From Sphingobium baderi (GTDB lineage Bacteria > Pseudomonadota > Alphaproteobacteria > Sphingomonadales > Sphingomonadaceae), in contig NZ_CP013264.1 of assembly GCF_001456115.1 (NCBI RefSeq), positions 1,100,001 through 1,164,000 on the forward strand: a stretch of 64,000 nt of DNA. The letters are read 5' to 3'. Under the pieces are notes generated by a model. It was not told the origin of the DNA, searched no databases, and was given only the letters and a program-made list of their open reading frames with translations. Positions 4,178 through 23,151 of the stretch are shown piece by piece (the stretch's first letter is position 1; each line of letters begins with the position of its first letter). Made by a program: the position numbers and the translations under genes.

Positions 4178-5382
4178 CGCGCCATGCCGGTGCCATCGTG
4201 CTGGGCCTCGACAGCGCAATCGGCCTTACCATCATGCGGGAATTGGGAAGCCATGGCGTCCCGGTATATGGCGTCGGGCGGGCGGCGTCCGGCACGGCCG
4301 CCGCGTCGCGTTATTGCACGGCCGCGTTCGACCGGCCGCAGGGGCCGATTGCCGCATGGCTCCCCGACCTGATCGCGCGCACCGGGGCAGGAGCGCTGCT
4401 GGCGACATCGGAATCCGATCTGCTGGAACTGGCCGAACTGCCCGCGCGCATGGGGGATTGTCATCTGCTCGTTCCCCGGATCGACCGGTTGAGGAAGGTG
4501 ATCGACAAGAATTGCACGCTGGAAGCGGCGATGGCGGCGGGGCTGCGCGTGCCCCGGACATGGCAACCGATGGCGGCGGAGGATTTCGCGGACCGCATTG
4601 CGGCGCTTCGCTATCCGGTGGTCGTGAAATGGGCCAATCCGCCCGAGGCGATGGCGTTCCTGAGCGAATGTGGACTGGAATGGATCAAGGCGGAATATGT
4701 CCGCTCCGCCGATGAATTGCGACGGCTGCTCGAACGTTATCGCCCGGTGGGGCGCTGGCCGCTGATCCAGGAATATTGCGGTGGGGTGGGCCTTGGCCAG
4801 ATGCTCCATATGGAAGGCGCGCGCGCCACGCTGCGCTTCCAGCACCGGCGGTTGCACGAATGGCCGCCTGAAGGCGGGGTGTCGACGCTGTGCCGTGCGG
4901 AGCCGATGGATCGTCATGCGGCGCAGATGGCGCTCTCCGAAAAGCTGCTGCGCGCGCTCGATTGGCAAGGGCCGGCGATGGTCGAATATCGCTATGACGG
5001 CACGCATTACTGGCTGATGGAAGTGAACGGGCGCTTCTGGGGCAGCATGCCGCTGGCCTGGCATTGCGGCGCGCATTTCGCGTGGGAAGCCTATCGCCGG
5101 ACGGTGTTGGGGCAAAAGGACGCGGCCAGCCCGGCGCGCGGGCATTTGCGGGCGCGCTACATGGTGCCGGAGACGAAACGGCTCGCCCGGCTGCTGCTGG
5201 CGCCGCGCCGGATCAGCGATCCCTTCTTCGCCATTCGGCCGGTGCGGGAACTGATCGGCTATGTCCTGGCCTTTTTCGATCCGCGGACGCGCTATTATAT
5301 CTTCACCCTCTCCGATCCACGGCCATGGATGCGGGATATGGCGCAGATATTCAGGAAAGCCGTGCGCCGGGAAACCCCTTGA
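4174..5382 (+). CDS. ATP-grasp ligase (carbamoyl-phosphate-synthase-like)
   Basis: The 402-residue protein starts with GTG inside the deacetylase stop (GTGA overlap). The first hundred residues form a Rossmann-like pre-ATP-grasp domain ('AIVLGLDSAIGLTIMRELG'). The ATP-grasp core follows, with the nucleotide-binding lysine strand 'YPVVVKWANPPEAMAF' (Lys152) and the metal-binding pair in 'YWLMEVNGRFWGS' (Glu283 and Asn285). Such enzymes ligate a carboxylate to an amine or thiol; relatives next to deacetylases are found in envelope glycan loci. The last 32 bp overlap the 3' end of the convergent phosphatase gene. The exact substrates cannot be inferred. Confidence 0.78.
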   Translation: MTRHAGAIVLGLDSAIGLTIMRELGSHGVPVYGVGRAASGTAAASRYCTAAFDRPQGPIAAWLPDLIARTGAGALLATSESDLLELAELPARMGDCHLLVPRIDRLRKVIDKNCTLEAAMAAGLRVPRTWQPMAAEDFADRIAALRYPVVVKWANPPEAMAFLSECGLEWIKAEYVRSADELRRLLERYRPVGRWPLIQEYCGGVGLGQMLHMEGARATLRFQHRRLHEWPPEGGVSTLCRAEPMDRHAAQMALSEKLLRALDWQGPAMVEYRYDGTHYWLMEVNGRFWGSMPLAWHCGAHFAWEAYRRTVLGQKDAASPARGHLRARYMVPETKRLARLLLAPRRISDPFFAIRPVRELIGYVLAFFDPRTRYYIFTLSDPRPWMRDMAQIFRKAVRRETP

Positions 5383-5902
5383 CCAGCGCATCGACCGCGC
5401 CTTCGATGCGGCAAAGGCATTGCGCCATATAGCGATCATCCAGCCCATAGGGATCATGCAGATGCGGTAAAGCCGGGCGCGTCCACCGGCCCAGCAACAG
5501 GCGTGGCCGGTCCGCAAGGCGCGGGTCGGCCGCCAGCCGGTGAAGCTGGCGCACTTCCATGGCAAGCAGCAGGTCGCCGCTTTCCGGCACATAATCGCCG
5601 GCGTCCAGCGCCCGGTGCGCCGACAGATCATGGCCCAAGGCGGCGGCGGCGGCGATGGCCGGACCGTGCGCGCCCCGCCCGCTGGCCGCGGAAAGGCCGA
5701 AGGACGCGGCTCGCAGGCCTGCCGAACGGGCGGCGACCTCGGCAAAGGCGCTGCGGCAGATATTGCCCTGACACACGAAGACCAGACGCCGCACCTCCGC
5801 CGGGTCGGGCCGTCTTTCCTCGGCGAGGTGGAACAGCGCCTGCGGATAGGAAAGCGCCAGCCGGACCAGTCCGCGAAATGTGCCGAAACGCGATCGAATC
5901 AT
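5351..5902 (-). CDS. Low-molecular-weight protein-tyrosine-phosphatase-like protein
   Basis: The 183-residue protein carries the phosphatase P-loop 'VFVCQGNICRSAFAE', an intact C-x5-R-S motif. The distal 'LHDPYGLDDRY' supplies the general-acid Asp followed by Pro. About 35 extra residues precede the catalytic domain ('MIRSRFGTFRGLVRLALSYP...'), which is unusual for a family that normally starts at the P-loop strand. The ATG at 5902 was chosen because the alternative start lies inside the tRNA-like gene 17 bp upstream. In Gram-negatives such phosphatases often act on tyrosine autokinases of capsule/EPS export, which fits the adjacent deacetylase and ATP-grasp genes. Its 3' end overlaps the ATP-grasp gene by 32 bp, convergently. 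Confidence 0.82.
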   Translation of the reverse strand: MIRSRFGTFRGLVRLALSYPQALFHLAEERRPDPAEVRRLVFVCQGNICRSAFAEVAARSAGLRAASFGLSAASGRGAHGPAIAAAAALGHDLSAHRALDAGDYVPESGDLLLAMEVRQLHRLAADPRLADRPRLLLGRWTRPALPHLHDPYGLDDRYMAQCLCRIEGAVDALVKGFPGARLS

Positions 5903-5919
5903 ATCCAAAGCCGGAAAGA

Positions 5920-6011
5920 TGGCGGAGACGCCGGGATTCGAACCCATCGTGCCCCATTCAGGGCACGATGGTTTGGCAAACCGCTGGTTTCAGCCACTCA
6001 CTCACGTCTCC
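5920..6011 (-). tRNA. Degenerate tRNA-Ser-like gene with anticodon GCC
   Basis: This 92-nt gene, with encoded CCA, matches the tRNA-Ser(GCU) at 24195-24286 except at six positions. The acceptor stem GGAGACG/CGTCTCC, discriminator G, D-loop, T-loop TTCGAAT and a long type-II variable arm are kept. The changes matter. The anticodon loop reads TTGCCAA, so the anticodon is GCC (a glycine anticodon on a serine body). The anticodon stem has a C-A mismatch, the D-stem has an A-C pair, and the T-stem 5' side is ATGGG against CCCGG, giving two bad pairs. The substitutions lengthen the variable-arm hairpin into a near-perfect palindrome that invades the neighbouring stems. Probably a pseudo-tRNA or island attachment relic; a functional misreading tRNA is possible but unlikely. 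Confidence 0.75.
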
Positions 6012-6190
6012 GGCCTGCTAGAATTTTCTGTAATATACTGAATATATTATATATTTTCGATTATACGGGCTGCCCATTTCCTTTGCAAGAGAAACAATTT
6101 CCGGGTTTGCGTGGCGCGATCGATCGGATCGAAGCAAGTGAAATTTGCTTGATTGCGAGAGCCTGCGTCGTTTCGCGGCGGTGATCGGCT
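6012..6190. other. AT-rich intergenic stretch beside the tRNA relic
   Basis: The first hundred bases (about 6017-6110) are strikingly AT-rich for this genome, including a run of A/T around 6030-6060. No ORF with credible coding character is present. The segment separates the degenerate tRNA from the spermidine-synthase-like gene and marks one edge of the block bounded by the two tRNA-Ser copies. Confidence 0.5.
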
Positions 6191-6985
6191 TCAGCAGAGA
6201 AGTTGAAAAGACGAAGCTGACTCTAGCCCATGTGATGCGGTTGCGTTCCGTCCCGGGGTCACGGTCATAGCCGGTGCGGCGCCGACCACGCGCGGATATT
6301 GGAAGCTCGCCGCATCTCGGCTTGCCAGATAGACATGGTGGAAAGCGTCCACCCTGCCGCCGGTAAGAGCCACCGTATCGCAACGCCAGGTCCATGGCAG
6401 AGCATCCAGCCGCTTCTCGAACGGAGGGGACGGTTTCGAGGACCAGAAGGCGGCGATCCCTTCCGCAGTGAGGGCGCGCTCGACGGCCCTGATCCCGCAT
6501 TCCCGATAGATGTCGCCATTTTCCGTGCGGACCAGATGATCAGGGCCATTGTCGGTGTCCATGAGCACGACATCATAAGGTCCGTGCCCGTTTTCCAGCG
6601 TATGCCTTACATCTTCCACGCGGACCTCGACGCGCGGATCGTCAAGCGGATTGCCCGCAAGATGGCCGAGATAGCGTCTGTTCCAATGCACGATCTCTGG
6701 CACGATTTCCGAAACGACCACTTTGGCGCCATCATCAAGGAAGTTCAGCACCATCCTCAACGTATAGCCCAGGCCCAGACCGCCGATCAGAACCTTCCTG
6801 GCCGGCCGGCCCAGCAGGCGCAGGGCCTTTTCCGCGAGGAAATCTTCCGATTGATGGCAGGAACTGCTCATCAGTTCCATGCCGTTATACCGGATTTCAT
6901 AGAGATCATTTCTTCTCAGCAATAGGATTTCGTCACCGGCGGAAAGGCCGGTTCGTGCCACTTCGGTCCAGATATGCATGCCCAT
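6191..6985 (-). CDS. Spermidine synthase-like (SpeE-fold) protein
   Basis: The 264-residue protein has the polyamine-synthase/SAM-methyltransferase fold. The glycine-rich nucleotide loop is 'VLIGGLGLGYTLRM' (residues 65-78). It is followed by the acidic strand end 'VVVSEIVPEIV', the 'DPRVEVRVEDVRHTL' segment and 'YDVVLMDTDNGPDHL', where true spermidine synthases have the catalytic D-x-x-D/DPxGP region. The motif here ('DTDNGPDH') differs, so the aminopropyl-transfer activity is doubtful; many bacterial homologues are orphan 'spermidine synthase-like' proteins. The last 35 residues look low in conservation. It lies at the edge of the accessory block, upstream of the tRNA relic in the same direction. 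Confidence 0.72.
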   Translation of the reverse strand: MGMHIWTEVARTGLSAGDEILLLRRNDLYEIRYNGMELMSSSCHQSEDFLAEKALRLLGRPARKVLIGGLGLGYTLRMVLNFLDDGAKVVVSEIVPEIVHWNRRYLGHLAGNPLDDPRVEVRVEDVRHTLENGHGPYDVVLMDTDNGPDHLVRTENGDIYRECGIRAVERALTAEGIAAFWSSKPSPPFEKRLDALPWTWRCDTVALTGGRVDAFHHVYLASRDAASFQYPRVVGAAPAMTVTPGRNATASHGLESASSFQLLC

Positions 6986-7485
6986 CCCTAACGATCGCGA
7001 CGCGGCTGACGGCAGCCGGCGCGCTTCAAATTTCGCGTTAGATGATTTTCAGGGGTTGCCCGGCTTCAGAGCCGCGGCAACCCATGGGCATCGTCGGCCC
7101 TTGTCCCGACGATCAGCGGATAGATTGCGGAAATATTCACGGCCTGCATGGTCAGTATCGCAATCGGCATCCAAAGTTGCTGGCAAAGCTGCTGGAAAAA
7201 CATCCATGCTTTGTCGGGATCGGATTGTCCAGTGCAGGGCGGCAGGACATCGGCAGGATCAAGGTCTTTCCCGCAAAGCCGCTCCATGCATCGCCATTCC
7301 CATGGGATTGTCGACGCATGGAAACCCGTCGGCGGCCAATATGGAGCAGCGAATGGCCCCCCTTATGAGTGTTGGGAGCCATTCGGGCAAAATTGCGTCC
7401 GCGTCGCGCCCGCGCTGCTTTCTGCCAGCCGCAGGATTGCTGCATGCCCTGCCGGACGGGGCCTATGGGCCCGCGCTCAGCAGGT
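6986..7485. other. 500-bp intergenic region, possible gene remnant
   Basis: No convincing gene is present. A 73-codon minus-strand reading frame at 7066-7287 contains a hydrophobic segment ('LWMPIAILTMQAVNISAIYPLI') but has no family match I recognise and lacks a clear ribosome-binding site. It could be the decayed end of a membrane protein. Long empty stretches like this are rare elsewhere in the window, which fits decay inside an acquired block. Confidence 0.35.
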
Positions 7486-8449
7486 TCACGGAACGAGTAA
7501 GCTCGGCCCCCCAAACAGAGCGCGACCGATCATGGCAGGTGCGATATTGACGACAAAGAAGGTGATCTGGAAAAGCCCGATCATTATCCACAATCGCCTT
7601 GCTTCGCGCCTCCAACCCGCGGGAACGCCATGCACGCCGAAGCGACGCTCCACCGACATAAAACCGTCAATGCCACGATTTGCCAATATGCCGACGAACC
7701 AGCCTGCCCACAAAGCGATCAGCGCAGGGAACACGAGCGGCAATTGCCCTTTATCGCTTTCCAGCGTCGGGCCGACAATCGCATCATATGTCCACCAGCC
7801 GTTGGCGACGGAACTACCCTCGACATAGATTTGATAGGCAAAGAAGAGGGGAAAGGCGACGAGCATCGCCCAGGCTTGCACGGGCAGAAACCGGAGCCTG
7901 CGGCCCAGCACCATGACCAGCGACGTCAGCAGAGGCAGCGATACCGCAAACCACCAACCCCAACTGAACGGTATGAACAGCGGTTTTACCGGGGTGGTAA
8001 ATGCCATGTCCCCCCAGAAGGGCAGACGGGAAAAAGCGGGGTTCCAGGCCAGATAGGCACCCCAGTCACCGAAAAATTCCTGCCAAAAGGCGCTTGTCGC
8101 GGCGATCAGGACCAGACCGAACAACGGCAAGCGTCGATTTTTCAGGGTCAATGCCACAGCGGCCAGGACCAATATGCCCCACAACCAGATGCTGCCACTT
8201 TCCATGACCCACCGGTCAACCGGTTCCCCCATTTGCGATTGCATTTCCTGTATCCCCCCTCTTCCATACGAACGCTGTGCGGCCTGATGGCGCATATAAT
8301 AGCAAGGCAAAAAATCCGCCAAATAGAAAGCTGGTCCATTGCTCGGCATATCGCGCTGGATTGAACCCGCCGCCAGATAGGGCGCTTGCGCCGCTTCCAG
8401 GAGGAACAATCCCCAGCATGGGGCGTAAGCCTTTTGTCCCGCCTCTCAT
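7486..8449 (-). pseudogene. AveC-like multi-spanning membrane protein, apparent frameshift in a G6 run
   Basis: The main frame (from about 8250 to 7486) encodes a hydrophobic protein with several membrane spans and the segment 'WQEFFGDWGAYLAWNPAF' followed by a W-G and P-rich stretch. This resembles the spirocyclase AveC-like family found in actinobacteria and sphingomonads, whose role outside avermectin synthesis is unknown. Read alone, the frame opens at 8409 with an atypical N-terminus. A second frame from an ATG at 8449 gives a better start ('ARYAEQWTSFLFGGFFALLLYA', a first membrane helix) and stops at 8216. The two join in one frame if a single G is removed from the G6 run at 8254-8259. 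This is either a real frameshift, a sequencing error, or slippage expression. The AveC assignment is tentative. Confidence 0.5.
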
Positions 8450-8694
8450 TTGCCCCCCGAATGATAGAGGCGGGGCAACTCATTCCAGGCGCGTAGCCTT
8501 GGCGATAGCGGAGCATGTCGACCGGCGGATGGATGTTGGGCAGTTCGTCTGGTCGATGATCACGGCGCTCGAAGCGAGGTGGCGCGCCATGGTTGCCGAG
8601 CTTCAACGGGAGTCCGAGCCGCAAAATCCGTGGAACAGCGGGTTTGGAAGGTGTAGCCTCTCACGCTCTGTCCCAGCCTCTGGAGCGTACCGGA

Positions 8695-10962
8695 ATGGTC
8701 GAAAAACAGCCCCGTTATAAGGCATATGATCACCCGGCCGGTGGCTGGGGCGCGGCTGCGGCCACTGCGAAGGTTCTTCTGGAACAGAGCGTCGTCACCA
8801 AGGGATCGCGCGCGCTCCTCGCGATGAACCAGCCAGGCGGCTTCAAATGCCCGAGTTGCGCCTTTCCGGATGCGGACTGCAAAAAGACCCTCGAATTCTG
8901 CGAGAATGGCGCAAAGGCGCTCGCGCATGAAGCCACCAAGTTCCGCGTCACGCGTGAATTCTTCGCCCGGCATACCGTCGCCGAGCTTATGGAGAAATCG
9001 GATTATTGGCTTGAAATGCAGGGGCGCCTGACCGAGCCGATGCGCTACGACGCCGCGAGCGACACATATGTTCCCTGCTCCTGGGACGAGGCTTTCGCGC
9101 TCATCGGCAAGCATCTGCGCGCGCTCGACACCCCGCACGAGGCGGAGTTCTATACGTCGGGCCGCACGCCGAATGAAGCGGCCTTCCTCTATTCGATCTT
9201 CGTCCGCCAGTTCGGGACCAACAACTTCCCGGATTGCTCGAACATGTGCCACGAACCCACGAGCCGCGGCCTGCCGCCTGCGATCGGGGTCGGCAAGGGT
9301 ACTGTCGTGCTCGAGGACTTCGAGCATGCCGAGGCGATCTTCGTCATTGGCCATAATACGGGCACCAATGCGCCGCGCATGATGACCAATCTGGTGGAAG
9401 CCCGCAAACGTGGCGTGCCGATAGTGGCGGTCAATCCGATGCCGGAACGCGCGCTGATCCGCTTCACCGAGCCGCAGGATTTGGTGCAGATGGCGACTTT
9501 CGGATCGACGCCGATCGCCAGCGAGTTCGTGCACATCAGGATCGGCGGCGACCTTGCGCTCCTCAAGGGCATGATGAAGGTCATGTTCGAGCGCGAGGAG
9601 AAGGGCGAGACGATCCTCGATCACGACTTCCTCCGTCAGCATACGGCCGGCATGGAAGCGGTGCGCGACGAGGTCATGGCGCTCGACTGGGTCGACATCG
9701 TCGCAGCGTCCGGCATCGAGGAAGCGCAGATCCGGCGCTGCGCGGAGATCTACATCCGCTCGAAGGCGACCATCATCTGCTATGGCATGGGCCTCACCCA
9801 GCATCAGCAGGGATCGCGCCTTCTCCAGCAGGTCGCGGGGCTGCTTCTGCTCAAGGGCAATTACGGCAAGCCCGGCGCAGGCATCTCGCCGATCCGGGGC
9901 CATTCCAATGTGCAGGGCGACCGCACCGTCGGGATCGACGAGAGGCCCACCCAGGCCTATCTCGACCGGGTGCGTGACGTGTTCGGCTTCGAACCGCCGC
10001 GCGGATATGGTCATCACACCGTGGAATCGGTCGAGGCGATGCTCGACGGCACCGCCAAAGTCTTCATCGGCATGGGCGGCAATTTCGTGCGCGCCGTGCC
10101 CGATACGGATATCGCCTATGCAGCGATGCGTAAGCTTTCGCTCTCCGTCGGCATCGCCACCAAGCTCAACCGGGGCCATCTGGTTCATGGGCGGGACGCC
10201 CTCATTCTGCCCGTCATCGCGCGCTCGGAACGGATCGAGACTGCGCGCGGCGAGCAGTTCGTGACGATCGAGGATTCCATGTCCAACGTCACGGCTTCCC
10301 GCGGGGTACTCGCTCCGGCAAGCCCGGACCTGAAACCCGAGGTCGAGATTGTCTGCCGCATGGCGATGGCCGCGCTCCCGGACAGCCAGATTCCCTGGGA
10401 GAGCTACATCGACGACTACGACCTCATTCGCGACAAGATCGCTGCCGTCTATCCCGAGATCTATGCGGACTTCTCCGAACGGATCAAAGAGCCCAGAGGT
10501 TTCCATCTCGACGTTGCGCCGCGGCGGCTGGTCTGGCTGACCCCAAACGGCAAGGCCAATTTCCTGCCTCTGCCTGGCCTAGACGTGAATGACCGGGTCG
10601 ATGATCCGGCGATGCTGCGGCTTGCGACCGTACGCTCGCACGACCAGTTCAATACGACGATCTACAGCTATAACGATCGCTATCGCGGCGTATATAACGA
10701 CCGGATGATCCTATTCATGAACAAGGAGGATCGGATCGCTCGCGGACTGGAAACAGGGGCAAGAATCGCGCTCGAAACGATCAGCGGCGAGGGGATGAGA
10801 CGGCGCGTGGATGCGCTGACCATCATCGATTACCCGATGCCGCGCGGTGCGGTTGCGGGCTATTATCCGGAACTCAACCCACTCCTGCCGCTCGATTATT
10901 ATGATCGGATGAGCGGCACCCCGGCTGCCAAGTCGATCCCGGTTCGGGTCGTCGCGGTCTAG
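8695..10962 (+). CDS. FdhF/YdeP family molybdopterin oxidoreductase
   Basis: The 755-residue protein is the length of E. coli YdeP and carries the family signatures. There is an N-terminal cysteine cluster 'GGFKCPSCAFPDADC' (Cys52, Cys55, Cys62). The motif 'CSNMCHEPTSRGL' is at residues 181-193, and 'EDFEHAEAIFVIGHNTGTNAPRM' and 'GNYGKPGAGISPIRGHSNVQGDRTVGI' match the bis-molybdopterin-binding domains. The C-terminal MopB domain contains 'RSHDQFNTTIYSYNDRYRGVYNDR'. The start at 8695 was chosen because 'MVEKQPRYKAYDHPAGGWGA' is the usual family start; 34 codons upstream are unlike the family. Substrate and electron acceptor are unknown; YdeP itself is linked to acid resistance. The partner FdhD is not in the window. 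It is an isolated plus-strand gene ending in a hairpin. Confidence 0.87.
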   Translation: MVEKQPRYKAYDHPAGGWGAAAATAKVLLEQSVVTKGSRALLAMNQPGGFKCPSCAFPDADCKKTLEFCENGAKALAHEATKFRVTREFFARHTVAELMEKSDYWLEMQGRLTEPMRYDAASDTYVPCSWDEAFALIGKHLRALDTPHEAEFYTSGRTPNEAAFLYSIFVRQFGTNNFPDCSNMCHEPTSRGLPPAIGVGKGTVVLEDFEHAEAIFVIGHNTGTNAPRMMTNLVEARKRGVPIVAVNPMPERALIRFTEPQDLVQMATFGSTPIASEFVHIRIGGDLALLKGMMKVMFEREEKGETILDHDFLRQHTAGMEAVRDEVMALDWVDIVAASGIEEAQIRRCAEIYIRSKATIICYGMGLTQHQQGSRLLQQVAGLLLLKGNYGKPGAGISPIRGHSNVQGDRTVGIDERPTQAYLDRVRDVFGFEPPRGYGHHTVESVEAMLDGTAKVFIGMGGNFVRAVPDTDIAYAAMRKLSLSVGIATKLNRGHLVHGRDALILPVIARSERIETARGEQFVTIEDSMSNVTASRGVLAPASPDLKPEVEIVCRMAMAALPDSQIPWESYIDDYDLIRDKIAAVYPEIYADFSERIKEPRGFHLDVAPRRLVWLTPNGKANFLPLPGLDVNDRVDDPAMLRLATVRSHDQFNTTIYSYNDRYRGVYNDRMILFMNKEDRIARGLETGARIALETISGEGMRRRVDALTIIDYPMPRGAVAGYYPELNPLLPLDYYDRMSGTPAAKSIPVRVVAV

Positions 10963-10980
10963 CTGATCCACCGCACTGGC

Positions 10981-11004
10981 GGCCGCCGGACTCATCCGGC
11001 GGCC
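10981..11004. terminator. Hairpin between convergent genes
   Basis: A perfect 9-bp inverted repeat (GGCCGCCGG at 10981-10989 with CCGGCGGCC at 10996-11004, 6-nt loop) lies 18 bp after the molybdoenzyme stop and 11 bp before the stop of the convergent NTF2-like gene. There is no strong T-tract on either strand, so it may be a bidirectional pause or 3'-end stabiliser. Confidence 0.5.
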
Positions 11005-11014
11005 TCGCCTTCCG

Positions 11015-11461
11015 TTACGCGCCGCCGAGTTCCTCTGTTCCGGCGAAGTCCTGTGTGACGCCCATTTTTTTGGTGAGATCGGCCATGTCGAGATATTCGC
11101 GCCATTTGAGGATGCGCCCGTCACCGTCCAGCTCATAGACCGCGACCATTTGATGCGGGCAGAATTTGCCCATGATGTAGGCGGTGTCCGAGCGTTCCTG
11201 CATGACCATGGTGTCGCTGGAGAGGATATTCACCTCGTTGCACTTGTTATGGGTGGCGATCACGCTTTGATGCTCGATTTCCTTTCGGAGAGCCTCCTTG
11301 CCTTTGATGACCGGGCCGCCGGGCACCCAGAGCTGCCATTCGGCATCGTCCGCCATCATGGAGAGGATTTTCTCGACATCCGGCTTGGTTTCAGCCGTGC
11401 CATCGCCCCAGGCAGCGTGGAATTCGCGGATATAGTTTTCCTGTTTCAGGCCCATCGTCAT
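11015..11461 (-). CDS. SnoaL-like / limonene-1,2-epoxide hydrolase-type NTF2-fold protein
   Basis: The 148-residue protein has the cystatin-like alpha+beta fold of the LEH/SnoaL group: 'YIREFHAAWGDG' helix, 'DDAEWQLWVPGGPVIKGKEALRKEI' central segment, 'VMQERSDTAYIMG' strand and the final 'GRILKWREYLDMADL'. The R-x-D pair in 'QERSD' and the acidic residues in 'WREYLD' correspond to the catalytic Asp-Arg-Asp region of limonene-1,2-epoxide hydrolase. It starts at an ATG at 11461 just after an AGGAGG ribosome site; a second ATG 6 bp further in is equally possible. It is a paralogue in architecture of the protein at 18083-18499, with which it shares the same ending motif. Natural substrate unknown. 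Confidence 0.75.
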   Translation of the reverse strand: MTMGLKQENYIREFHAAWGDGTAETKPDVEKILSMMADDAEWQLWVPGGPVIKGKEALRKEIEHQSVIATHNKCNEVNILSSDTMVMQERSDTAYIMGKFCPHQMVAVYELDGDGRILKWREYLDMADLTKKMGVTQDFAGTEELGGA

Positions 11462-12054
11462 TCTCCTCCTAAAAGCTGCCGGTTTCAGCACTTGTGCGTA
11501 TCTTGCGGGTCACGCCGTTGAACAGAGCCGCCCGGCTCTCGCTCTCGCCCCATGAATTGACGATGCGGCATCGGCTTCGCTCATGATCGCAACCTTGTTC
11601 AGCGAGGCCCATGCCATCTCCCATGATCCGCCGTCTTTTTGATATTCGCGCGTTCAGCTTAATCCGGCGCATCGGGCGCCCCACCTATCTTTCGGCGGTT
11701 CATCGGATGCCGGTCGATGGCCAGAACAGGATCAAGACATTGCCGGGCTGATGATTGCAGGGCGGAGAAATTTGCATCCTTTGCTGGAGTTCTGCTCCCG
11801 GCACGCATGGATGATCCTCGCTCGACCGTCCGTTCCCACGGCCCGTCCGCGCCGGAGATGAGCAACCTGACCCATGGTAGGTGGTTCGGAAATCAGCCCG
11901 CTTAAACCGGTGCCCCGGAGATAAAGCCGGGCCGATGGGCGCGACGATGGGGGAGGGGCATGTCCAGAACCGAACCGAGTGGATATACTTCGCCCTGCTG
12001 TCGAGGTGCTGCGCGCCGTCGAAGGGATCATAGCGACGCGTCCGCCAATGGTGG
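11462..12054. other. 593-bp intergenic region without a supported gene
   Basis: Several short overlapping frames exist on both strands, but none has a family signature, sensible start or steady codon usage. The stretch separates the minus-strand NTF2-like gene from the plus-strand PQQ dehydrogenase, so it should hold two divergent promoters; I could not identify clear -35/-10 pairs. Its size in an otherwise compact genome suggests it is the scar of a lost gene. Confidence 0.4.
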
Positions 12055-14403
12055 ATGTTGCAAGTGACCGCTGGTGGCACGGCGGCGGCTTCGCGGTGGG
12101 CGAGCATCGGAATAAGCCGGATTCATGCGCTGTTGCTGGCCATATTCGGGTTGGCGCTCGCCGGGCCAGCGACAGCCCTGGCGCGAGTGGGCGGATCGCC
12201 CTGGTATATGCTGGCGGCGCTCGTGTCGCTCGTCACTGCCGTGCTGGTGTGGCGGCGTAGCGGCCGCGCGCCTGTCGTCTATGGTATCTTTCTGCTGGCG
12301 ACCTTGATCTGGTCAGTTTGGGAAGTGGGGTTCGAGCCCTGGGCGCTGTTGCCGCGTCTGGGCATGCCGATCATCCTCGGCCTGCCGTTTCTCGCAGGGG
12401 TCTGGCCACGCGGCCGCCGGGGCGCCGTTCTCGCCGGGGTCGGAGTTTTGCTGCTGGGCGTCGTCTGGGTTGAGGCGAGCGCGTGGCGCGCAGAGCCAAG
12501 CGTTCCGGACGGGATGGGAGCCAGTGCCGCGGTCTCCGGCGACTGGCGGCATTATGGTAACGACGCTGGCGGCACCCGCTTTTCACCGCTGGGGCAAATC
12601 GGCCCCATGAATGTCGCCGCGCTGGAGCCGGCATGGACGTTTCGTTTCGGTCCTTCGGCAGTGGCGGCGCCCGTCACGCTGGAAACCACGCCGCTTGCGG
12701 TGGCGGGGCGATTGTTCCTGTGCACCGGCGACAATGACGTGATCGCGCTCGACGGTGACAGTGGCCGTCAATTGTGGCGCTTTCGCGCGCACGCCGATGG
12801 CCGGGGTGTGCCGATCGCATCCTGCCGCGGCGTCGCCTACCATCGCCAGCCAAATGTCGCAGGTCCATGCGCCGAGCGGATATTGACCGCGACGATGGAT
12901 GCCCGATTGATCGCATTGGATGCCAGCAATGGCCGGCCTTGCGCCGGGTTCGGTATCGACGGTGCGGTCGACCTCCGCGCCGGGCTGGGCAGGGTCGACA
13001 AGGGCTATTATTTCGTCACCTCCCCGCCGCAGATCATCGGCAATCGCGCGGTCGTGGGCGGATGGGTGGTCGACGGCCAATATGTGGGTGAACCGTCGGG
13101 CGTGGTCCGTGCCTTCGATGTGCATTCCGGCGCTCTTGCCTGGGCCTTCGATGCAGGACGCCCGGACCGCCGCGGTCCGCCTCAACCCGGAGAGCAATAT
13201 ACGCCGGGGACGCCCAATAGCTGGGCACCGATGAGCGTCGACGAGGGCCTGGGCATGGTCTACGTACCGACCGGCAATGCGACGCCCGATTATTATGGCG
13301 CCAGCCGGCGACCGTTCGACGATCGTTTTTCGAGCGCGGTGGTGGCGCTGGATGCCGCGACCGGAACCGTGCGCTGGGTATTCCAGACGGTGCATCACGA
13401 TCTATGGGATTATGACGTCGCCAGCCAGCCCACGCTGACGGACATCAATGGCGTGCCCGCCCTGATCCAGCCGACCAAGCGCGGCGAGATTTTCGTGCTC
13501 GATCGACGCACGGGACGACCGATCGCCCCGGTGGAGGAGCGCGCGGTTCCCCGGAGCACCGTGCCCGGTGAGCGGGCAGCGCCCACGCAGCCCTTTTCCA
13601 GCGGAATGCCGAGCTTTGCCGGAGAGACGCTGACCGAGGCGGACATGTGGGGCCTGACGCCGATTGACCAGGCGCTGTGCCGCGCCGCTTTCCGCCGCGC
13701 CCGATATGACGGGCCATTGACGCCACCGGGACTGGACCGGCCGAGCCTGATCTATCCAGGCTATGGCGGCGGCATCAATTGGGGCGGGGTTTCGATAGAC
13801 GTCGCGCGCGGGATCATGATCGTGAACAGCAACCGCGTCGGCAATCTGGTGCAACTGATCACGCGGGATGCCGCCCGGCGGCGCGGGATTGTCCCGCTTT
13901 CGGTGAACAGTCATGGCGGCGCGGCGGGGGCGGTCGCGCAGGAAGGGCTCCCCTATGCAGCGGATCTGAAACCCCTGATCTCACCGATCGGCGTACCGTG
14001 CCAGAAGCCGCCCTGGGGGATGATCGCGGCAGTCGACCTGCAATCCCGACGGCTGCTCTGGAGCCGCCCGCTCGGCACCGGGCGGGACAGCGGTCCCTTC
14101 GGGATGGGATCGCAACTGCCGTTCACGATGGGGGTTCCCAATACCGGCGGATCGATCGCCACCGCATCGGGACTGACTTTTATCGGCGCGACGCACGATC
14201 GATATCTTCGCGCCATCGAGACGCGAACCGGGTGCGAACTGTGGCGTGGGCGGCTGCCCGCTGGGGGACAGGCGACGCCGATGATGTTTCGCTCGCCGCG
14301 CACCGGGCGGGAGTTCGTGGTCATCGCCGCGGGTGGCCATCCCGGACTGGGCACGAAAGGCGGCGACTATGTCATTGCCTATGCCCTTCCTCAGCGCAAA
14401 TAG
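12055..14403 (+). CDS. Membrane-bound PQQ-dependent dehydrogenase, glucose/quinate/shikimate family
   Basis: The 782-residue protein has the layout of Gcd. An N-terminal anchor of about five hydrophobic helices (residues 20-140) is followed by a periplasmic eight-bladed quinoprotein propeller. Repeats ending in 'DNDVIALDGDSGRQLWRF', 'DARLIALDASNGRP' and 'GVVRAFDVHSGALAWAF' are the beta-sheet blades with tryptophan-docking motifs. 'HHDLWDYDVASQPTL' and 'GGGINWGGVSIDVARGIMIVNSN' are diagnostic for the membrane GDH group. It would oxidise an aldose or polyol in the periplasm and reduce ubiquinone. No pqq synthesis genes are in the window, so cofactor supply is unknown. The N-terminus before 'RIHALLLAIFGLALAG' is uncertain; the true start may be up to 22 codons later. 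Stands alone on the plus strand. Confidence 0.9.
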   Translation: MLQVTAGGTAAASRWASIGISRIHALLLAIFGLALAGPATALARVGGSPWYMLAALVSLVTAVLVWRRSGRAPVVYGIFLLATLIWSVWEVGFEPWALLPRLGMPIILGLPFLAGVWPRGRRGAVLAGVGVLLLGVVWVEASAWRAEPSVPDGMGASAAVSGDWRHYGNDAGGTRFSPLGQIGPMNVAALEPAWTFRFGPSAVAAPVTLETTPLAVAGRLFLCTGDNDVIALDGDSGRQLWRFRAHADGRGVPIASCRGVAYHRQPNVAGPCAERILTATMDARLIALDASNGRPCAGFGIDGAVDLRAGLGRVDKGYYFVTSPPQIIGNRAVVGGWVVDGQYVGEPSGVVRAFDVHSGALAWAFDAGRPDRRGPPQPGEQYTPGTPNSWAPMSVDEGLGMVYVPTGNATPDYYGASRRPFDDRFSSAVVALDAATGTVRWVFQTVHHDLWDYDVASQPTLTDINGVPALIQPTKRGEIFVLDRRTGRPIAPVEERAVPRSTVPGERAAPTQPFSSGMPSFAGETLTEADMWGLTPIDQALCRAAFRRARYDGPLTPPGLDRPSLIYPGYGGGINWGGVSIDVARGIMIVNSNRVGNLVQLITRDAARRRGIVPLSVNSHGGAAGAVAQEGLPYAADLKPLISPIGVPCQKPPWGMIAAVDLQSRRLLWSRPLGTGRDSGPFGMGSQLPFTMGVPNTGGSIATASGLTFIGATHDRYLRAIETRTGCELWRGRLPAGGQATPMMFRSPRTGREFVVIAAGGHPGLGTKGGDYVIAYALPQRK

Positions 14404-14420
14404 CCAGTCTTGAAAAGCTG

Positions 14421-15371
14421 TCAGTCCCGGACGACCAGCACCGTTTTGCCGCGCGCATGACCACTTCCGAGCGCAGCCAGCGCATCGCCGAATTGTTCGA
14501 GCGGATAGATCGCCGTCACCACCGGCCGGATGGTTCCCTCAGCGACCACCTTCGCCATGTCCGGCCACGCGCCGGCACTGTCCGGGCCGCTCGCGACACG
14601 GCAGGCGATATCCTTGGCAGCCCAGCGTTCCGCAAAACCGGCAGAGGGTAAGCCGCGGAGCGCGACATAGCGGCCGCCGGAACGCACCTTTTCACAGAGA
14701 GTATCCGCGTTGCTGCCGTCCGCGCTATCCAGAACGCCATCGATCTGGCCAAGATCGTCCAGCCAGTCGGACGCCGCATAGTCTCGCGGTTCAGCGCCGA
14801 GCTGACGGACGAGATCGAGATTGCCCGCCGATGCCGTTCCGATCACCCGCGCTCCGCGCCATCGCGCGAGTTGTACCGCGACGCTGCCGATGCCGCCCGC
14901 TGCTCCGTTGATAAGGATCGTCTGCCCAGGTTGAACATCGAGGCCACGTGCCGTCGAGAACAGTCCGTCCCACGCCGCCATCAGCACATTGGGGAGAGAT
15001 GCGGCCTCGATGTGTGATAGCTTCTCCGGTTTCCTGGCGGCACGGTCGCAAGGGATCGTCACATAATCCGCGAATGTCCCTTCCGCGTCTGCCGCCGCCT
15101 GCCCAAAAACGGCGTCCCCTGTCCGGAACCCTGCGACTTCCTTGCCGACCGCTTCGACGACTCCTGAAAAATCACGGCCCAGAACCGCGGGAAGAGTGAA
15201 GGAGACGAAGGCATTGACATATCCTTCGACCGCGTAGCGATCGAAGGGATTGACGCCGGCGGCGTGCACGCGGACGAGCAGCGCTCCCGGATCGACCGGA
15301 GGGGTTGGGATATGGTCGATCCGGACTCCGGTCAAACCGCTATAATCATGAAAGCGCACTGCACGCATCAC
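14421..15371 (-). CDS. MDR-superfamily NADP-dependent quinone oxidoreductase-like protein
   Basis: The 316-residue zinc-independent medium-chain dehydrogenase has a GroES-like N-terminal domain ('VRVHAAGVNPFDRYAVEGY', 'PAVLGRDFSGVVEAVGKEVAGFRTGDAVFG'). The Rossmann NADPH-binding loop is 'TILINGAAGGIGSVAVQLARWRGARVIGTAS'. Structural-zinc cysteines are absent, placing it with quinone oxidoreductases or enoyl reductases (QOR/zeta-crystallin type). It may start at ATG 15371 or 15368. It lies at the downstream end of the minus-strand run that contains the Rieske oxygenase, so reduction of a quinone or enone product of that pathway is a reasonable inference. Its stop is 18 bp from the convergent PQQ dehydrogenase stop. 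Confidence 0.87.
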   Translation of the reverse strand: MMRAVRFHDYSGLTGVRIDHIPTPPVDPGALLVRVHAAGVNPFDRYAVEGYVNAFVSFTLPAVLGRDFSGVVEAVGKEVAGFRTGDAVFGQAAADAEGTFADYVTIPCDRAARKPEKLSHIEAASLPNVLMAAWDGLFSTARGLDVQPGQTILINGAAGGIGSVAVQLARWRGARVIGTASAGNLDLVRQLGAEPRDYAASDWLDDLGQIDGVLDSADGSNADTLCEKVRSGGRYVALRGLPSAGFAERWAAKDIACRVASGPDSAGAWPDMAKVVAEGTIRPVVTAIYPLEQFGDALAALGSGHARGKTVLVVRD

Positions 15372-15466
15372 CGCTTTCCTTTTTCAGGCCGCCAGATCAT
15401 GTTCAGGGACGGCGCGGGGCACCTGCCTTGAAGCAGGTATATTGTCGAGGCAGTTGGGGCGTGAGA

Positions 15467-16018
15467 TCAAGCGAGCATCCGGTCTACGGCATCGCGTTCG
15501 ACCGCCGTCACATCCATCAGCTTGCCGCCGAAAACATGTTCGCCCAGCATCAGCCGGCGCTCCACATCGATGGGATGGCTGCTCATCGAGCGCCATCGGA
15601 TAAAATAATACCCCTCCGGATCAAGCGGATAGGGTTGAATGTGAAGAGATTTTCCGCGGATGATCGCCGTGTTGATGCCCTCGAACATCATGCCCCAGTC
15701 GGCAAACGCCCAGCGCTCTTCTATAAATGGTCCTGCCATAGGCAGATCACCTTCGGCTGCGCCCTGATAAAGGGAACGGGCCTCTTCGGTCGTCTTGAAT
15801 TCCCAGTAATGGGGAATGAGAAGTCCGATTCCGTCAAAGCGGTATGTTACTTCCTTCTCCGGCAATGTTGTCATGATTGCCGCAAGGTCGTTCCGAACCT
15901 CGGCGATCCAGTGATCGCGGTACACTTCCAGCATGATACGGTCGCGTGGATTCTCCAGATCGCCAATATTTGCATTGATACGGCGCATCGCGTCGCTGAC
16001 GGTGGGAATTTCGATCAT
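15467..16018 (-). CDS. NTF2-fold protein of unknown function
   Basis: The 183-residue protein has the arrangement of SnoaL/NTF2-like proteins: long helices ('DHWIAEVRNDLAAIMTTL'), a mid-segment 'EVTYRFDGIGLLIPHYWEFKTTEEARSLYQGA' and C-terminal strands with 'WAFADWGMMFEGINTAIIRGKSL' and 'YYFIRWRSMSSHPI'. It is longer than the usual 130-150 residues because of an extra C-terminal helix ('LMDVTAVERDAVDRMLA'). No catalytic residues can be assigned. Members are often found with Rieske and MDR genes in sphingomonad and mycobacterial catabolic clusters. It is the second gene from the end of the minus-strand run. Confidence 0.6.
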   Translation of the reverse strand: MIEIPTVSDAMRRINANIGDLENPRDRIMLEVYRDHWIAEVRNDLAAIMTTLPEKEVTYRFDGIGLLIPHYWEFKTTEEARSLYQGAAEGDLPMAGPFIEERWAFADWGMMFEGINTAIIRGKSLHIQPYPLDPEGYYFIRWRSMSSHPIDVERRLMLGEHVFGGKLMDVTAVERDAVDRMLA

Positions 16019-16170
16019 TTGCGCTCTCTTTGTCAGGATTGGGATTTTTTCGTGCCTTCGACATCTGCATCATCCAGTGAGATTATATCCCGATGTCAAA
16101 ATGAACATTGAAACAACTGAACCCATCATTTCGGATATTGTCAGCATGACGAGTGAGAGCAGAACCACCG

Positions 16171-17535
16171 TCAAGGCACGAATGGTTGCAAGGCATATTG
16201 CGTGAGACGTTCCCGCGCCGGCAATGCCTCTGCCATGCGGTCATCGACCTGCCTCGCAAAATAGTCGAGCAAGATCGCATCATGGTCCGGCCCCGCTGTC
16301 TGGACGAAGTTCTCAACCGCGGCATCAGCCTCTCGCCAGTCCGCAGGACGATAGCCCAGGAACGCGGCAGCACGATCGAGATCGGCCGCGCCATGCTCTT
16401 GCCGCATCGCGGCTTCCGCTCGCGCCCATTGGACCAGCTTCTCCGCTGAGCACCTATCGTTCTCGCCAAGCTCGGAGTTTCCCGTATCGATCCTGGCGAC
16501 CGTTGCTTCCAGAATCTCCCACACGATCCGAGAGCGGCTGTCCGCAGGTTCGGGGGGAGCAGACGTGGGAATAGTGACGCCCATGTGCTCGGCAATGGCC
16601 CAGAGCAGCGCCCGACGGCATAGAATATCCCACACAATATATTCATATTGCATGTCCACCGGCCCCGGGTTCGCCATGGGAGCAGCCAGCGTCATGGACG
16701 AAGCGAGCATGAAAGTCGCGGTGTGATAGCTGAACGCCTTCTGATCAATCTCCATTCCAGTCGTGCGGGCATAGTGGCGAACCAGATGATTAGGATCAGC
16801 GCCCAGAGGCTCGGTCGGATGTCGCAGCCTAAGCGCTGCCAGATCATGCATGGGATCGCCAATGTGCGTGGCCTCGAAATCATACAGGGTAGTGATCTTG
16901 CCATTCTGGAAAAGGAACTGCCCCGGATCGCCATGCAAAACGCATGTTCGGGTGCGATGCTGCGGAACGTTTCGCTCTACCCAACGCAGAGCCCATTCCA
17001 TCATCGGCTGCGGCGTTTTCTTGAGCCGGCGAAAGATTGCTATGTTCGGGGTGAGATAGGAGAATGCGATCTCCCTTGGAGACTGGGGCTGAACCACGCC
17101 TGCCGCGACGAAAGGCGCGGTGTCCAGGCTGTGGATGCGCGCTAGGATCTCGACGCTTTCCTCGGCTATCCGCTGCGCTTCTGCGGCGTTGGCTGCTTCG
17201 GTGACATCCCGTGTTCCCGGGACGCGATCCATGATGATCCCCTCTGGATCGTGGCTCATGCCATAGACGTGAGGCACCGGAATGCCCCCTTGCTCAAGCA
17301 GCCGGAGAATCCCGGCCTCGCGCGCCAGGCCAGGAAATGTCTCCGCGTCGATTCCCTTGTCGCCGCGGACATAGAGCGGGATCGTGCGATCATCGCGACT
17401 GACCTCCGCATACCAGCTCGTACGCCATCGCGGTTGCCGATCCAGCATCGTCACGCTTCCGCCCACCAGCCGCTCGATCTGCCGTGTCAGCCGTTCGGTC
17501 ATGTCGTCCTTAACTATAGCATGGTTCATGTTCAT
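16171..17535 (-). CDS. Aminoglycoside-phosphotransferase-fold (APH/ACAD10-like) protein
   Basis: The 454-residue protein has a kinase-like fold. Motifs are the N-lobe strand 'IPLYVRGDKG', the hinge-like 'GIIMDRVPGT', the catalytic loop 'LHGDPGQFLF' (His201, Asp203) and the metal-binding 'LYDFEATHIGDPMHDLA' (Asp219). The expected H-x-D-x4-N motif is altered: no Asn follows at the normal spacing, and the loop seems two residues short. The 110-residue C-terminal tail (about 345-454) is outside the APH domain. Proteins of this group sit in acyl-CoA and steroid or terpenoid catabolic clusters and phosphorylate hydroxylated intermediates (ACAD10/11-like). The gene overlaps none of its neighbours and belongs to the minus-strand run. 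Confidence 0.78.
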   Translation of the reverse strand: MNMNHAIVKDDMTERLTRQIERLVGGSVTMLDRQPRWRTSWYAEVSRDDRTIPLYVRGDKGIDAETFPGLAREAGILRLLEQGGIPVPHVYGMSHDPEGIIMDRVPGTRDVTEAANAAEAQRIAEESVEILARIHSLDTAPFVAAGVVQPQSPREIAFSYLTPNIAIFRRLKKTPQPMMEWALRWVERNVPQHRTRTCVLHGDPGQFLFQNGKITTLYDFEATHIGDPMHDLAALRLRHPTEPLGADPNHLVRHYARTTGMEIDQKAFSYHTATFMLASSMTLAAPMANPGPVDMQYEYIVWDILCRRALLWAIAEHMGVTIPTSAPPEPADSRSRIVWEILEATVARIDTGNSELGENDRCSAEKLVQWARAEAAMRQEHGAADLDRAAAFLGYRPADWREADAAVENFVQTAGPDHDAILLDYFARQVDDRMAEALPARERLTQYALQPFVP

Positions 17536-17607
17536 CCCCGTCCCCGGATGAAGAGCGCGCCTTCATCGAGTGAGCTGCCATTTCCGGTCAGCAAAGAAGC
17601 GAGCCGC

Positions 17608-17982
17608 TCAAAGGTCAGGTGTCTGAGGCCAGAAGCGCGAATGCAGCGAGCCGTCCTCCCGAAACAAATATGTTTCAATCGACTCGAGTTCGATGGTCTT
17701 TCCGTCCTGAACCAGCTTGTGCGTGAAATAGGTCGCGGCTTCGCCATTGGCGACCATCGCGGACACAAGGCGGGATTGCACGTTGATGCCGTCCTCCCAC
17801 ATGCGATCGAGATGGTCCCAACCCTTGAAAACCTCCCCATTTGCCGGCCATTCGAGCGAGTAGCCGCCAGGTGCGATCTGGCGGTAAAGGGCCATGAAAT
17901 CGTCTTTGCGGCTCTTGTCGTTGAAGATCCGGGTCTGCTCGTCGAGGAAGCTGTGAATGGTCCTGGATGATGGGATGCTCAT
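17608..17982 (-). CDS. SnoaL-like polyketide-cyclase/NTF2-fold protein
   Basis: The 124-residue protein shows the short SnoaL layout: N-terminal helix 'IHSFLDEQTRIFNDKSRKDDFMALYRQIAPGGYSLEWP', then 'GWDHLDRMWEDGI', a strand pair 'RLVSAMVANGEAATYFTHKLVQDGK' and the closing strand 'ELESIETYLFREDGSLHSRFW'. It lacks the R-x-D pair of limonene-epoxide hydrolases, so a binding or isomerase role (ketosteroid-isomerase-like) is as likely as hydrolysis. It lies between the kinase-fold gene and a second NTF2-fold gene, all on the minus strand. Confidence 0.68.
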   Translation of the reverse strand: MSIPSSRTIHSFLDEQTRIFNDKSRKDDFMALYRQIAPGGYSLEWPANGEVFKGWDHLDRMWEDGINVQSRLVSAMVANGEAATYFTHKLVQDGKTIELESIETYLFREDGSLHSRFWPQTPDL

Positions 17983-18082
17983 GCTGGCTCCTTTGATGGG
18001 TCAGGGTCCGCGACGCTGCGATGTGCAGGAGAGGGAGATGGTCTTCCGTCAATAGAAAGGCGCCCGGCCCCGCATGGCAAGG

Positions 18083-18499
18083 CTAGCCGGCTATGACGGC
18101 TTCGGGTTTCATGCCGAGTTGCTTGCCCAGATCGGCTGTATCGAAATATTCTCTCCAGCTCACAATCTTGCCCTCTGCATCGAGATCATAAACGGCGACG
18201 AGGGCATGAGAGACGCGGACCCCGTGCATCGTGAAATAATCCAGGCGTTCGGTCATCACGGTCAATCCGGCAGAAACTAATTTAACGATCCCGCATTCCA
18301 TGAAGGTCGAGAACTCACGCTGGCGTTTGACTTCAGCATGGATTGCCTTTTGGCCCCGCACGACCTGGCCGGGCACCCACATGTGCCATTCCCCTTCCGT
18401 CGCGAAATAGCTGGCGATGATATCCGGGTCGGGCTTCTCGATCTTGCCCTCACCCCAGGCAGCGCAGAAATCGCGCACGATCTTTTCGGCATCAATCAT
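18083..18499 (-). CDS. Limonene-1,2-epoxide hydrolase-like NTF2-fold protein
   Basis: The 138-residue protein contains 'VRDFCAAWGEG', 'EGEWHMWVPGQVVRGQKAIHAEV', 'MTERLDYFTMHG' and 'GKIVSWREYFDTADLGKQLG'. The R-x-D pair in 'ERLDYF' and the acidic 'WREYFD' are positioned like the catalytic Arg/Asp residues of limonene-epoxide hydrolase. It is close in layout to the protein at 11015-11461 (shared 'WREY[FL]D.ADL.K..G' ending), so the two are likely paralogues about 7 kb apart in the same accessory block. The context, a Rieske oxygenase and TonB receptor just upstream, suggests action on an epoxide or similar intermediate of that pathway. Confidence 0.77.
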   Translation of the reverse strand: MIDAEKIVRDFCAAWGEGKIEKPDPDIIASYFATEGEWHMWVPGQVVRGQKAIHAEVKRQREFSTFMECGIVKLVSAGLTVMTERLDYFTMHGVRVSHALVAVYDLDAEGKIVSWREYFDTADLGKQLGMKPEAVIAG

Positions 18500-18603
18500 A
18501 TTATCCCTCTCCCATATTCGTCAGGTCCAAAATGCCTCGACGTTAAGCCTGTTGATATATGGACACGGTTTCGACCGCGATTGTCCTTAGCCTGTTTTGG
18601 CGA

Positions 18604-21030: not shown

Positions 21031-21169
21031 GACTATCCCCTCAATTTATATATTTAACTCTATGATATTGTATTTTTTTATTATAAATTGGTCGAATACT
21101 TTATCATTTTAATTGAAAAATATAATTTTGTATAGTAAATTGTATCAGTCATTTCTTGGTGGTAACAGG
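21031..21169. promoter_or_regulatory. AT-rich upstream region of the TonB receptor gene
   Basis: This 139-bp gap is very rich in A and T (long T and A runs around 21045-21140), unlike the rest of the window. It presumably holds the receptor's promoter, and its composition is suggestive of imported DNA and of H-NS-like (MucR/Ros-type) silencing, though neither can be shown from sequence alone. Confidence 0.4.
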
Positions 21170-21517
21170 CTATTCGCTACCAGATTGCGTCCAGATTGTA
21201 TCGATATGGTGCGGATAGGGTGCATTCTTGACGCGCGGCGCGCCGAAAATTTCGACAGCCTGCATCACTTCGCTGAGCCCCATGACAGTGCGGTACAAGC
21301 GCGCTTCGGCTTCCGGCAGGTCGCCGTCCGGGAAACTGTCGAGATAGGTGAAAATCTCGTCCAGCCGGTTGGCCGCAGCATCGTGAAATGTGCGTAGCTC
21401 GTCCATCGTTAGCGACTGGCGCAGCAGATATCGCTCAGAGGCCGTTTCCAATTGACCCCATTTCTCTGCAAATGGCTCAAGCGCTGAAAACTGGTCGGGA
21501 AGCTTCGTAATACTCAT
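21170..21517 (-). CDS. Small uncharacterised protein linked to the Rieske oxygenase
   Basis: The 115-residue protein is predicted to be helical ('FSALEPFAEKWGQLETASERYLLRQSLTMDELRTFHDAAANRLDEIFTYL' in two helices), acidic, and without membrane segments or cysteines. I have no named family for it, but it follows the Rieske gene by 30 bp and is transcribed with it. It is not a typical ring-hydroxylating beta subunit (those are about 160-180 residues with an NTF2 fold). It could be an accessory or stability factor for the oxygenase. Confidence 0.6.
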   Translation of the reverse strand: MSITKLPDQFSALEPFAEKWGQLETASERYLLRQSLTMDELRTFHDAAANRLDEIFTYLDSFPDGDLPEAEARLYRTVMGLSEVMQAVEIFGAPRVKNAPYPHHIDTIWTQSGSE

Positions 21518-21546
21518 CTTTCCACCCCCATCGACCTATCATATCG

Positions 21547-22842: not shown

Positions 22843-22860
22843 GGCATTCCCCAACGCATG

Positions 22861-22876
22861 TAATTCATATGAATTA
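22861..22876. promoter_or_regulatory. Palindromic operator candidate before the Rieske gene
   Basis: TAATTCATATGAATTA is a perfect 16-bp palindrome located 19 bp upstream of the chosen GTG start. A looser relative with the same TTCA...TATGAA shape is at about 22946-22957. Position and symmetry fit a repressor site, and the nearest candidate regulator is the TetR-family gene at 23152-23805. Confidence 0.5.
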
Positions 22877-23151
22877 TCTAGGTCGGCGATATGGTGCAAC
22901 CCAGGCAATGTCAAGCTTTGCTCCAAGGCGTTGCGGCCTGATACAGTTCACATATGAAAATCCCGGCAGGTCGTGGTTCGTCGCGCTTATGGGTGTTTGT
23001 GACAGTTCTGTGCCCGGGGGACGCTTGACCCAAGGGTGTGAGGAAAAGCCGATAGCGGCGGCATGTCTCTCATCTGGCGCGCAAAATCGCGTGCGCGGCC
23101 ATCTAGCGATTCCGATGAGCGTGAGGTCGGCATGGTTGCGGACCAGCAACT

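Follow-up and report, generated by a model that had tools for sequence, protein, structure and literature searches.

In Sphingobium fuliginis, the mobile element pPDL2 uses the 3′ end of a seryl-tRNA gene for its recombination (PMC3516476), and Islander-type islands have an intact tRNA gene at one boundary and, at the opposite one, a displaced copy facing the same way (PMC4383910). Both resemble a locus in the window, the 64,000-nucleotide stretch of Sphingobium baderi DNA analysed here, in which two serine tRNA genes on the reverse strand, a degenerate full-length copy with anticodon GCC (copy 1, 5920..6011) and an intact tRNA-Ser(GCU) (copy 2, 24195..24286), enclose an insertion of about 18.2 kb (6012..24194). 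The likeness to pPDL2 lies in a sphingomonad mobile element that uses a seryl-tRNA 3′ end as attB, whereas the insertion here is without an integrase module and the passages of that paper used here leave the type of seryl-tRNA unstated. The likeness to the islands, as far as the portions of the Islander paper considered here describe them, includes the occupation of the same site by integrase elements in relatives; their displaced copy, however, is a fragment, whereas here it is a whole 92-nt gene with a promoter. Since the Islander definition requires an integrase and none was detected in this insertion, we do not class it as an integrase-bearing tRNA island.

Copy 1 itself recalls two further systems, each compared through excerpts of the respective paper. 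Template switching that completes RNA stems has been described (PMC8794818), and copy 1 likewise bears a cluster of adjacent changes that completes a stem and was seemingly copied from the opposite arm, but the described mutations maintain stems, while the change here weakens a functional T-stem in a redundant gene. Engineered yeast serine tRNAs with foreign anticodons (PMC6827378) share with copy 1 a serine body, another anticodon and weakening mutations, but they are engineered and active, whereas copy 1 is natural and is not predicted to form a cloverleaf. Taken together, our analysis indicates that copy 1 is very probably the decayed, displaced copy of the target site, marking the far boundary of a genomic insertion at tRNA-Ser(GCU), and as such a natural example of the fate of a redundant tRNA after the insertion of foreign DNA.

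Two tRNA-Ser copies and the insertion between them

ARAGORN called 5920-6011(-) as tRNA-Gly(gcc) and 24195-24286(-) as tRNA-Ser(gct), and alignment of the two 92-mers on the tRNA strand gave six mismatches (copy 2 to copy 1: G10A, T37C, G43A, C64G, C65A and C66T), which confirms the six differences, one of them creating a GCC anticodon, that had been read from the sequence beforehand. T37C, at 5975, turns the anticodon GCT into the GCC of copy 1 (5975..5977, reverse strand), and positions 64-66 change from CCC to GAT. Copy 1 retains the acceptor stem, the G discriminator and CCA, and the similarity of the copies drops to chance level outside both gene ends. An assembly error is an unlikely source of the six substitutions. 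An automatic tRNA finder can thus label a decayed serine tRNA as “tRNA-Gly(GCC).”

The direction of change was read from the genus, in which a search of 94 genomes, this one included, found a tRNA-Ser match in 92 and yielded sequences from 91 relatives. The sequence of copy 2 recurs letter for letter in five of these 91. Counts by position refer to the 81 relatives with a 92-nt gene, that is, without nine 93-nt genes and one 91-nt gene (L015): in all 81, positions 10, 37, 43 and 64 are invariant, and four of the six changes of copy 1 fall on them. T-stem bases 65-66 read GA in 71 and CC in 10, with bases 80-81 matching accordingly, in two compensated T-stem types (GA/TC, 71/81; CC/GG, 10/81), and A65 and T66 occur in none of the 81. 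The five identical relatives and the invariance of the changed positions argue that copy 2 is ancestral and copy 1 derived. Separately, the tRNA-Ser(GCU) of L015 (genome G039, 1501-1591) lacks one T-stem base, which reflects either an assembly error or a damaged gene.

The empty site is preserved in relatives. A single tRNA-Ser with the EipA gene upstream and the low-molecular-weight phosphatase-like gene (LMWPc) downstream was found within the extracted stretch in 11 of 91 relatives, EipA alone in 61 and neither flanking gene in 19; EipA, located here at 24518..25321 on the forward strand, is thus the upstream neighbour of tRNA-Ser in 72 of 91. In five relatives (L010, L013, L016, L021 and L031), DNA matching about 4429-6012 joins DNA matching 24194 onward at one tRNA. 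Because relatives carry one tRNA-Ser between the same flanking genes, we regard 6012-24194 as an insertion, with an empty site in relatives and a displaced tRNA in direct orientation. A simple tandem duplication is ruled out by the same empty site, and of the duplication proposed in the sequence-only reading, the duplicate copy stands while its origin by simple gene duplication does not, the copies being the two ends of an insertion. That reading had also held that the absence of a second copy in relatives would refute duplication, and this absence is nearly complete: in the same-genus relatives searched, no second full-length match exceeds 71% identity, and a single relative (G059) has a partial displaced copy (tRNA positions 33-92) 8 kb from its own tRNA. 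The duplication stands nonetheless, since this near-absence of second copies is accounted for by the unoccupied site together with the short tRNA fragments displaced in relatives.

The insertion carries chiefly metabolic genes. Its GC content is 59.4%, compared with 65.0% before copy 1 and 63.8% after copy 2, and forms a mosaic of 51-68% per kb. Pfam domains in its cargo include a spermidine-synthase domain, a molybdopterin oxidoreductase, a PQQ-dependent dehydrogenase, an alcohol dehydrogenase, an APH-family phosphotransferase, two SnoaL/epoxide-hydrolase-like proteins, a TonB-receptor plug, a Rieske oxygenase and a TetR regulator. None of the 35 PF00589 integrase matches of the genome lies in the insertion, and Pfam showed no recombinase or transposase domain among the 42 frames of 120 aa or longer in 6012-24194; the mode of insertion proposed below is accordingly an inference. 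One end (6012-8600) gave a single strong match, of about 1 kb in G089 and away from the tRNA of that genome, together with five short weak matches, and the other (21000-24190) was matched elsewhere only in part, over no more than 422 bases at 65%.

In relatives, the same site is repeatedly occupied. Within the extracted downstream DNA, an integrase-like match follows tRNA-Ser in 15 of 91 relatives; in 14 the frame begins 144-217 nt after the tRNA (one of them, L103, spanning 70 residues), and the fifteenth match (L151) is weak, 23 residues long and located at 1432 nt. On one viral contig, a tyrosine integrase comes after tRNA-Ser. A strong phosphatase match (E ≤1e-57) was obtained in 47 relatives, and 29 of these loci were examined: the phosphatase gene lies within 167 bases of the tRNA in nine and 2.6-36 kb downstream on the same strand in ten, while the others have the two genes on opposite strands of the same contig (four), on another contig (five) or show no tRNA match (one). 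Directly before the phosphatase gene, 10 of the 29 loci carry a displaced tRNA 3′ end of 13-22 nt, and within the ten same-strand loci at 2.6-36 kb, five keep a tRNA remnant and five are without one at the threshold used. The downstream integrase-like frames and the displaced tRNA 3′ ends mark this tRNA-Ser site as a hotspot. Among these junctions, copy 1 stands out: the displaced tRNA is entire and preceded by a tRNA-type promoter, against the short ends of relatives. Across the genus, the distance from the tRNA to a same-strand phosphatase gene behind it ranges from about 20 bases to 36 kb, and this tRNA-Ser/phosphatase pair with its repeated insertions offers a comparative system for promoter retention when a gene downstream of a tRNA is cut off.

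The course of events that we favor would begin with the entry of the insertion between the tRNA-Ser(GCU) gene and the phosphatase gene behind it. The simplest account of a full-length displaced tRNA is a circular incoming DNA that included an entire tRNA-Ser together with a promoter for it and that may have recombined with the chromosomal gene; such an event would leave a full tRNA gene at both ends. Copy 2, which retains the native upstream side, would have remained the working gene, and the redundant copy 1 would have decayed, with G10A, T37C and G43A as ordinary transitions. After G43A, a single template switch within the variable arm, a quasi-palindrome, may then have turned CCC into GAT with the opposite arm as template. 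The promoter of copy 1 may still serve the phosphatase gene, in which case copy 1 would be part of its leader.

The perfected hairpin of copy 1

The variable-arm region of copy 1 (5944..5971, reverse strand) was characterized by alignment, repeat search and simulation. Here tRNA positions 41-51 and 58-68 pair perfectly over 11 bp around a loop of 6 nt, with the changed triplet at 5946-5948 and G43A at 5969. The corresponding arms of copy 2 are interrupted by two mismatches (44-65 and 45-64), with G-C at 43-66, and perfect repeats with a loop of 3-12 nt reach no more than 6 bp in that copy. The sequence-only reading had described the repeat of copy 1 as longer and nearly perfect; longer it is, and it is in fact perfect at 11 of 11 bp. 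Its placement of the triplet on the T-stem side holds for positions 65 and 66, the first two T-stem bases, and not for 64, the final base of the variable region.

A template switch had been proposed as the cause of the triplet, and one inverted copy does fit CCC to GAT, though only after G43A. The pair 43-66 is G-C in the ancestor and A-T in copy 1, and because it was already paired in the ancestor, the triplet at 64-66 looks templated only if G43A came before; given A43, a single 11-nt inverted copy of 41-51 into 58-68 explains 64-66. The ancestral sequence is present in five relatives, and no intermediate state was seen among the relatives.

The rarity of such an outcome was gauged by simulations that were framed post hoc, with the data already seen: of 100,000 runs with six random substitutions, 18 or 63 (according to the transition bias) ended with this 11-bp arm perfect, and any perfect repeat of at least 11 bp arose in 1 of 4000, while 205 of 50,000 random triplet replacements could be explained by an inverted copy of at least 9 nt. 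We consider it rather probable that a template switch made CCC to GAT, this being likelier than independent point mutations. The lengthening of the hairpin by such point mutations, an alternative to this one step of the account only, is possible and on balance unlikely. A redundant copy would be free to mutate, and G10A, T37C and G43A resemble ordinary transitions, but an account of this kind must accommodate a run of three changed bases, each matched by its partner in the opposite arm, an outcome that was rare among the simulated substitutions and among the simulated triplets alike. Copy 1 offers a candidate for a bacterial template switch observed while the relic is still young.

Promoter and phosphatase neighbour

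A promoter-like TTGCAA-17-TATAAT lies 48 nt before copy 1 (6060..6088, reverse strand) and a native promoter-like TTGCCA-17-TATAGG 49 nt before copy 2 (24336..24364, reverse strand). Among the tRNA-Ser promoters of the relatives, TTGnnn-17-TATAnn is universal, standing 39-54 nt upstream of the gene in all 91. The spacing and distance of the copy 1 site fall inside this range, and shuffled upstream DNA of copy 1 showed such a site there (spacing 16-18) in 87 of 20,000 trials. A search for 6012-6231 in 93 same-genus genomes reported no match.

The phosphatase-like gene (LMWPc, 5351..5902, reverse strand) follows copy 1 immediately. Its start comes 18 coordinates after the end of copy 1, and in 10 of the 11 empty-site relatives it comes 18-27 coordinates after the end of the tRNA. 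No terminator-like site was found in 5700-6300, and together with the conserved spacing this makes it plausible that the tRNA promoter drives the phosphatase gene. Promoters of stable RNAs under stringent control typically have GC-rich discriminators. The DNA after the −10 box is mostly GC-rich in the native genes and AT-rich in copy 1, which would therefore fit an mRNA promoter.

These observations bear on a reading that is compatible with an insertion-end relic, namely that copy 1 has been retained as the leader, promoter and hairpin, of the phosphatase mRNA, as an exapted tRNA. We hold it as tentative and doubtful. It is favoured by the 10 of 11 empty-site relatives in which tRNA-Ser immediately precedes the phosphatase gene, and by the arrangement at copy 1 itself, with the spacing kept, a promoter-like site at a tRNA-typical distance and no terminator-like site in 5700-6300. 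Against it stand the 10 of 29 phosphatase loci that have only a short tRNA remnant upstream, which indicate that a full tRNA leader is not required. A fuller version, in which the incoming serine-tRNA transcription unit replaced the lost promoter of the phosphatase gene and the tRNA then decayed, partly by template switch, into a hairpin leader behind a promoter with AT-rich rather than GC-rich DNA after its −10 box, is more speculative still and appears improbable. If true, this fuller version would amount to the conversion of a tRNA gene into an mRNA leader by way of an inserted island.

Probable loss of tRNA function in copy 1

The state of copy 1 as a tRNA was examined with a covariance model built from 20 distinct tRNA-Ser sequences of relatives, that of copy 2 included; L015 was excluded from the model and searched nonetheless. 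Copy 1 scored 93.7 bits, compared with 116.8 for copy 2 and 106-118.3 for the 91 relatives, whose high scores are partly by construction, since 20 of their sequences, that of copy 2 among them, are in the model; the lowest-scoring relative is L015 (106 bits), with its missing T-stem base. On the same GCU-type model, the other tRNA-Ser genes of the genome score below copy 1, at 84.8, 81.7 and 75.1 bits. At the Rfam gathering score, copy 2 is listed and copy 1 is absent; at a lax threshold, the best match of copy 1 is tRNA-Sec, at 29.9 bits and under the family cut-off of 47.

Copy 1 has lost three cloverleaf pairs (10-26, 29-43 and 65-81) and has a G-U wobble at 66-80; it shows neither the paired D, anticodon and T stems of a functional tRNA-Ser nor a genus-like score. 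The predicted energy gap between the cloverleaf and the minimum-energy fold is 20.6 kcal/mol for copy 1, 4.8 for copy 2 and 2.7-7.2 for the 20 distinct native sequences, and the triplet change with G43A alone gives 21.6; since these energies ignore modified bases and the cloverleaf is not the best fold even for the natives (the same 2.7-7.2), only the contrast between copy 1 and the natives counts. The RNA of copy 1, if made, would probably adopt the predicted long hairpin, and a working tRNA is not expected. The genome already encodes an ordinary tRNA-Gly(GCC) and tRNA-Ser with anticodons TGA, CGA, GGA and GCT. The earlier judgement that copy 1 is more probably a pseudo-tRNA is borne out by the covariance score, the broken pairs, the fold energy and the lack of any need for copy 1.

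That the mismatched stems arose as a chimera of two different working tRNA-Ser genes, one of the host and one incoming, is very unlikely. The genus does have two compensated T-stem types, and elements do exchange tRNA parts at this tRNA-Ser site, but C26, C29, G80 and G81 are common to both copies, so that A10, A43 and A65 would be pairless in either parent and T66 would have only a wobble partner. Because the partner bases are shared in this way, the broken pairs did not come from recombining two sound tRNAs, barring later gene conversion. A65 and T66, moreover, are the bases found in 0 of 81 relatives, and among the 48 loci of the genome searched, a set covering its 48 Rfam tRNA matches as well as copy 1, GATGGGTTC occurs in no tRNA but copy 1. 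Conversion of copy 1 by another tRNA of the genome was considered as a separate candidate and rejected after a search of the genome's tRNA loci.

The least probable reading of all, and one that we give hardly any credence, is that copy 1 decodes GGC as a functional serine tRNA, with a low and tolerated rate of serine-for-glycine substitution and with the stem mutations damping its activity. Serine identity does not rest on the anticodon (PMC9976931, in the portions drawn on here), which makes serine at GGC sound in principle, and in yeast, according to the passages of PMC6827378 used here, serine tRNAs with foreign anticodons are tolerated given a secondary mutation that lowers their activity. 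Copy 1 further keeps its acceptor stem, G discriminator, CCA and a correctly placed promoter-like site, and its 93.7 bits exceed the 75.1-84.8 of the genome's other tRNA-Ser on the GCU-type model. Set against this are the predicted fold, which departs from the cloverleaf, the three broken pairs and the use of GGC for 290 of the 496 glycine codons in ten genes of the window, a frequency at which misreading would be costly.

The working-tRNA reading also finds no GCC relative in the pattern scans. In a collection of genome contigs that may omit this genome, neither the exact GCC-plus-hairpin pattern nor the GCC form of the serine anticodon arm with a long variable arm had a match; the second pattern is insensitive, as its GCT form, run as a control with a different tool, found 26 of 59 family genomes, this one included, and would thus overlook many serine tRNAs by missing more than half. 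The GCC-plus-hairpin pattern had no match in viral contigs. A looser pattern matched 4 of 397 family genomes, with GCC in this genome only. Among the papers listed by literature searches, none was recognised as describing a bacterial serine tRNA with a glycine anticodon, which does not prove its absence. Overall, insertion of serine at glycine codons by copy 1 is unlikely, and the predicted structure is consistent with the preferred interpretation of copy 1 as a decayed insertion end.

Further tRNA calls and fragments were noted in the course of this work. In the window, ARAGORN called a tRNA-Ala(tgc) at 51957-52055 that has no Rfam support at the gathering score and is probably a false call. 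Elsewhere in this genome (G000), the 3′ two thirds of a tRNA-Arg(CCT) (L098, G000:C1:3874299-3874363; 54 nt aligned, 5 mismatches) lie about 10 kb from the intact tRNA-Arg(CCT) and beside a PF00589 integrase at 3874464-3875030, which probably represents another tRNA island with an ordinary displaced fragment. A partial tRNA-Arg(CCG) (L097, G000:C1:2542504-2542571), comprising the first 45 nt with 3 mismatches, lies about 145 bp from the intact gene. Integrase matches at C1:674040-674462 and C1:2989360-2989875, near tRNA-Leu(CAG) and tRNA-Glu(CTC), respectively, mark further candidate tRNA islands of this genome.
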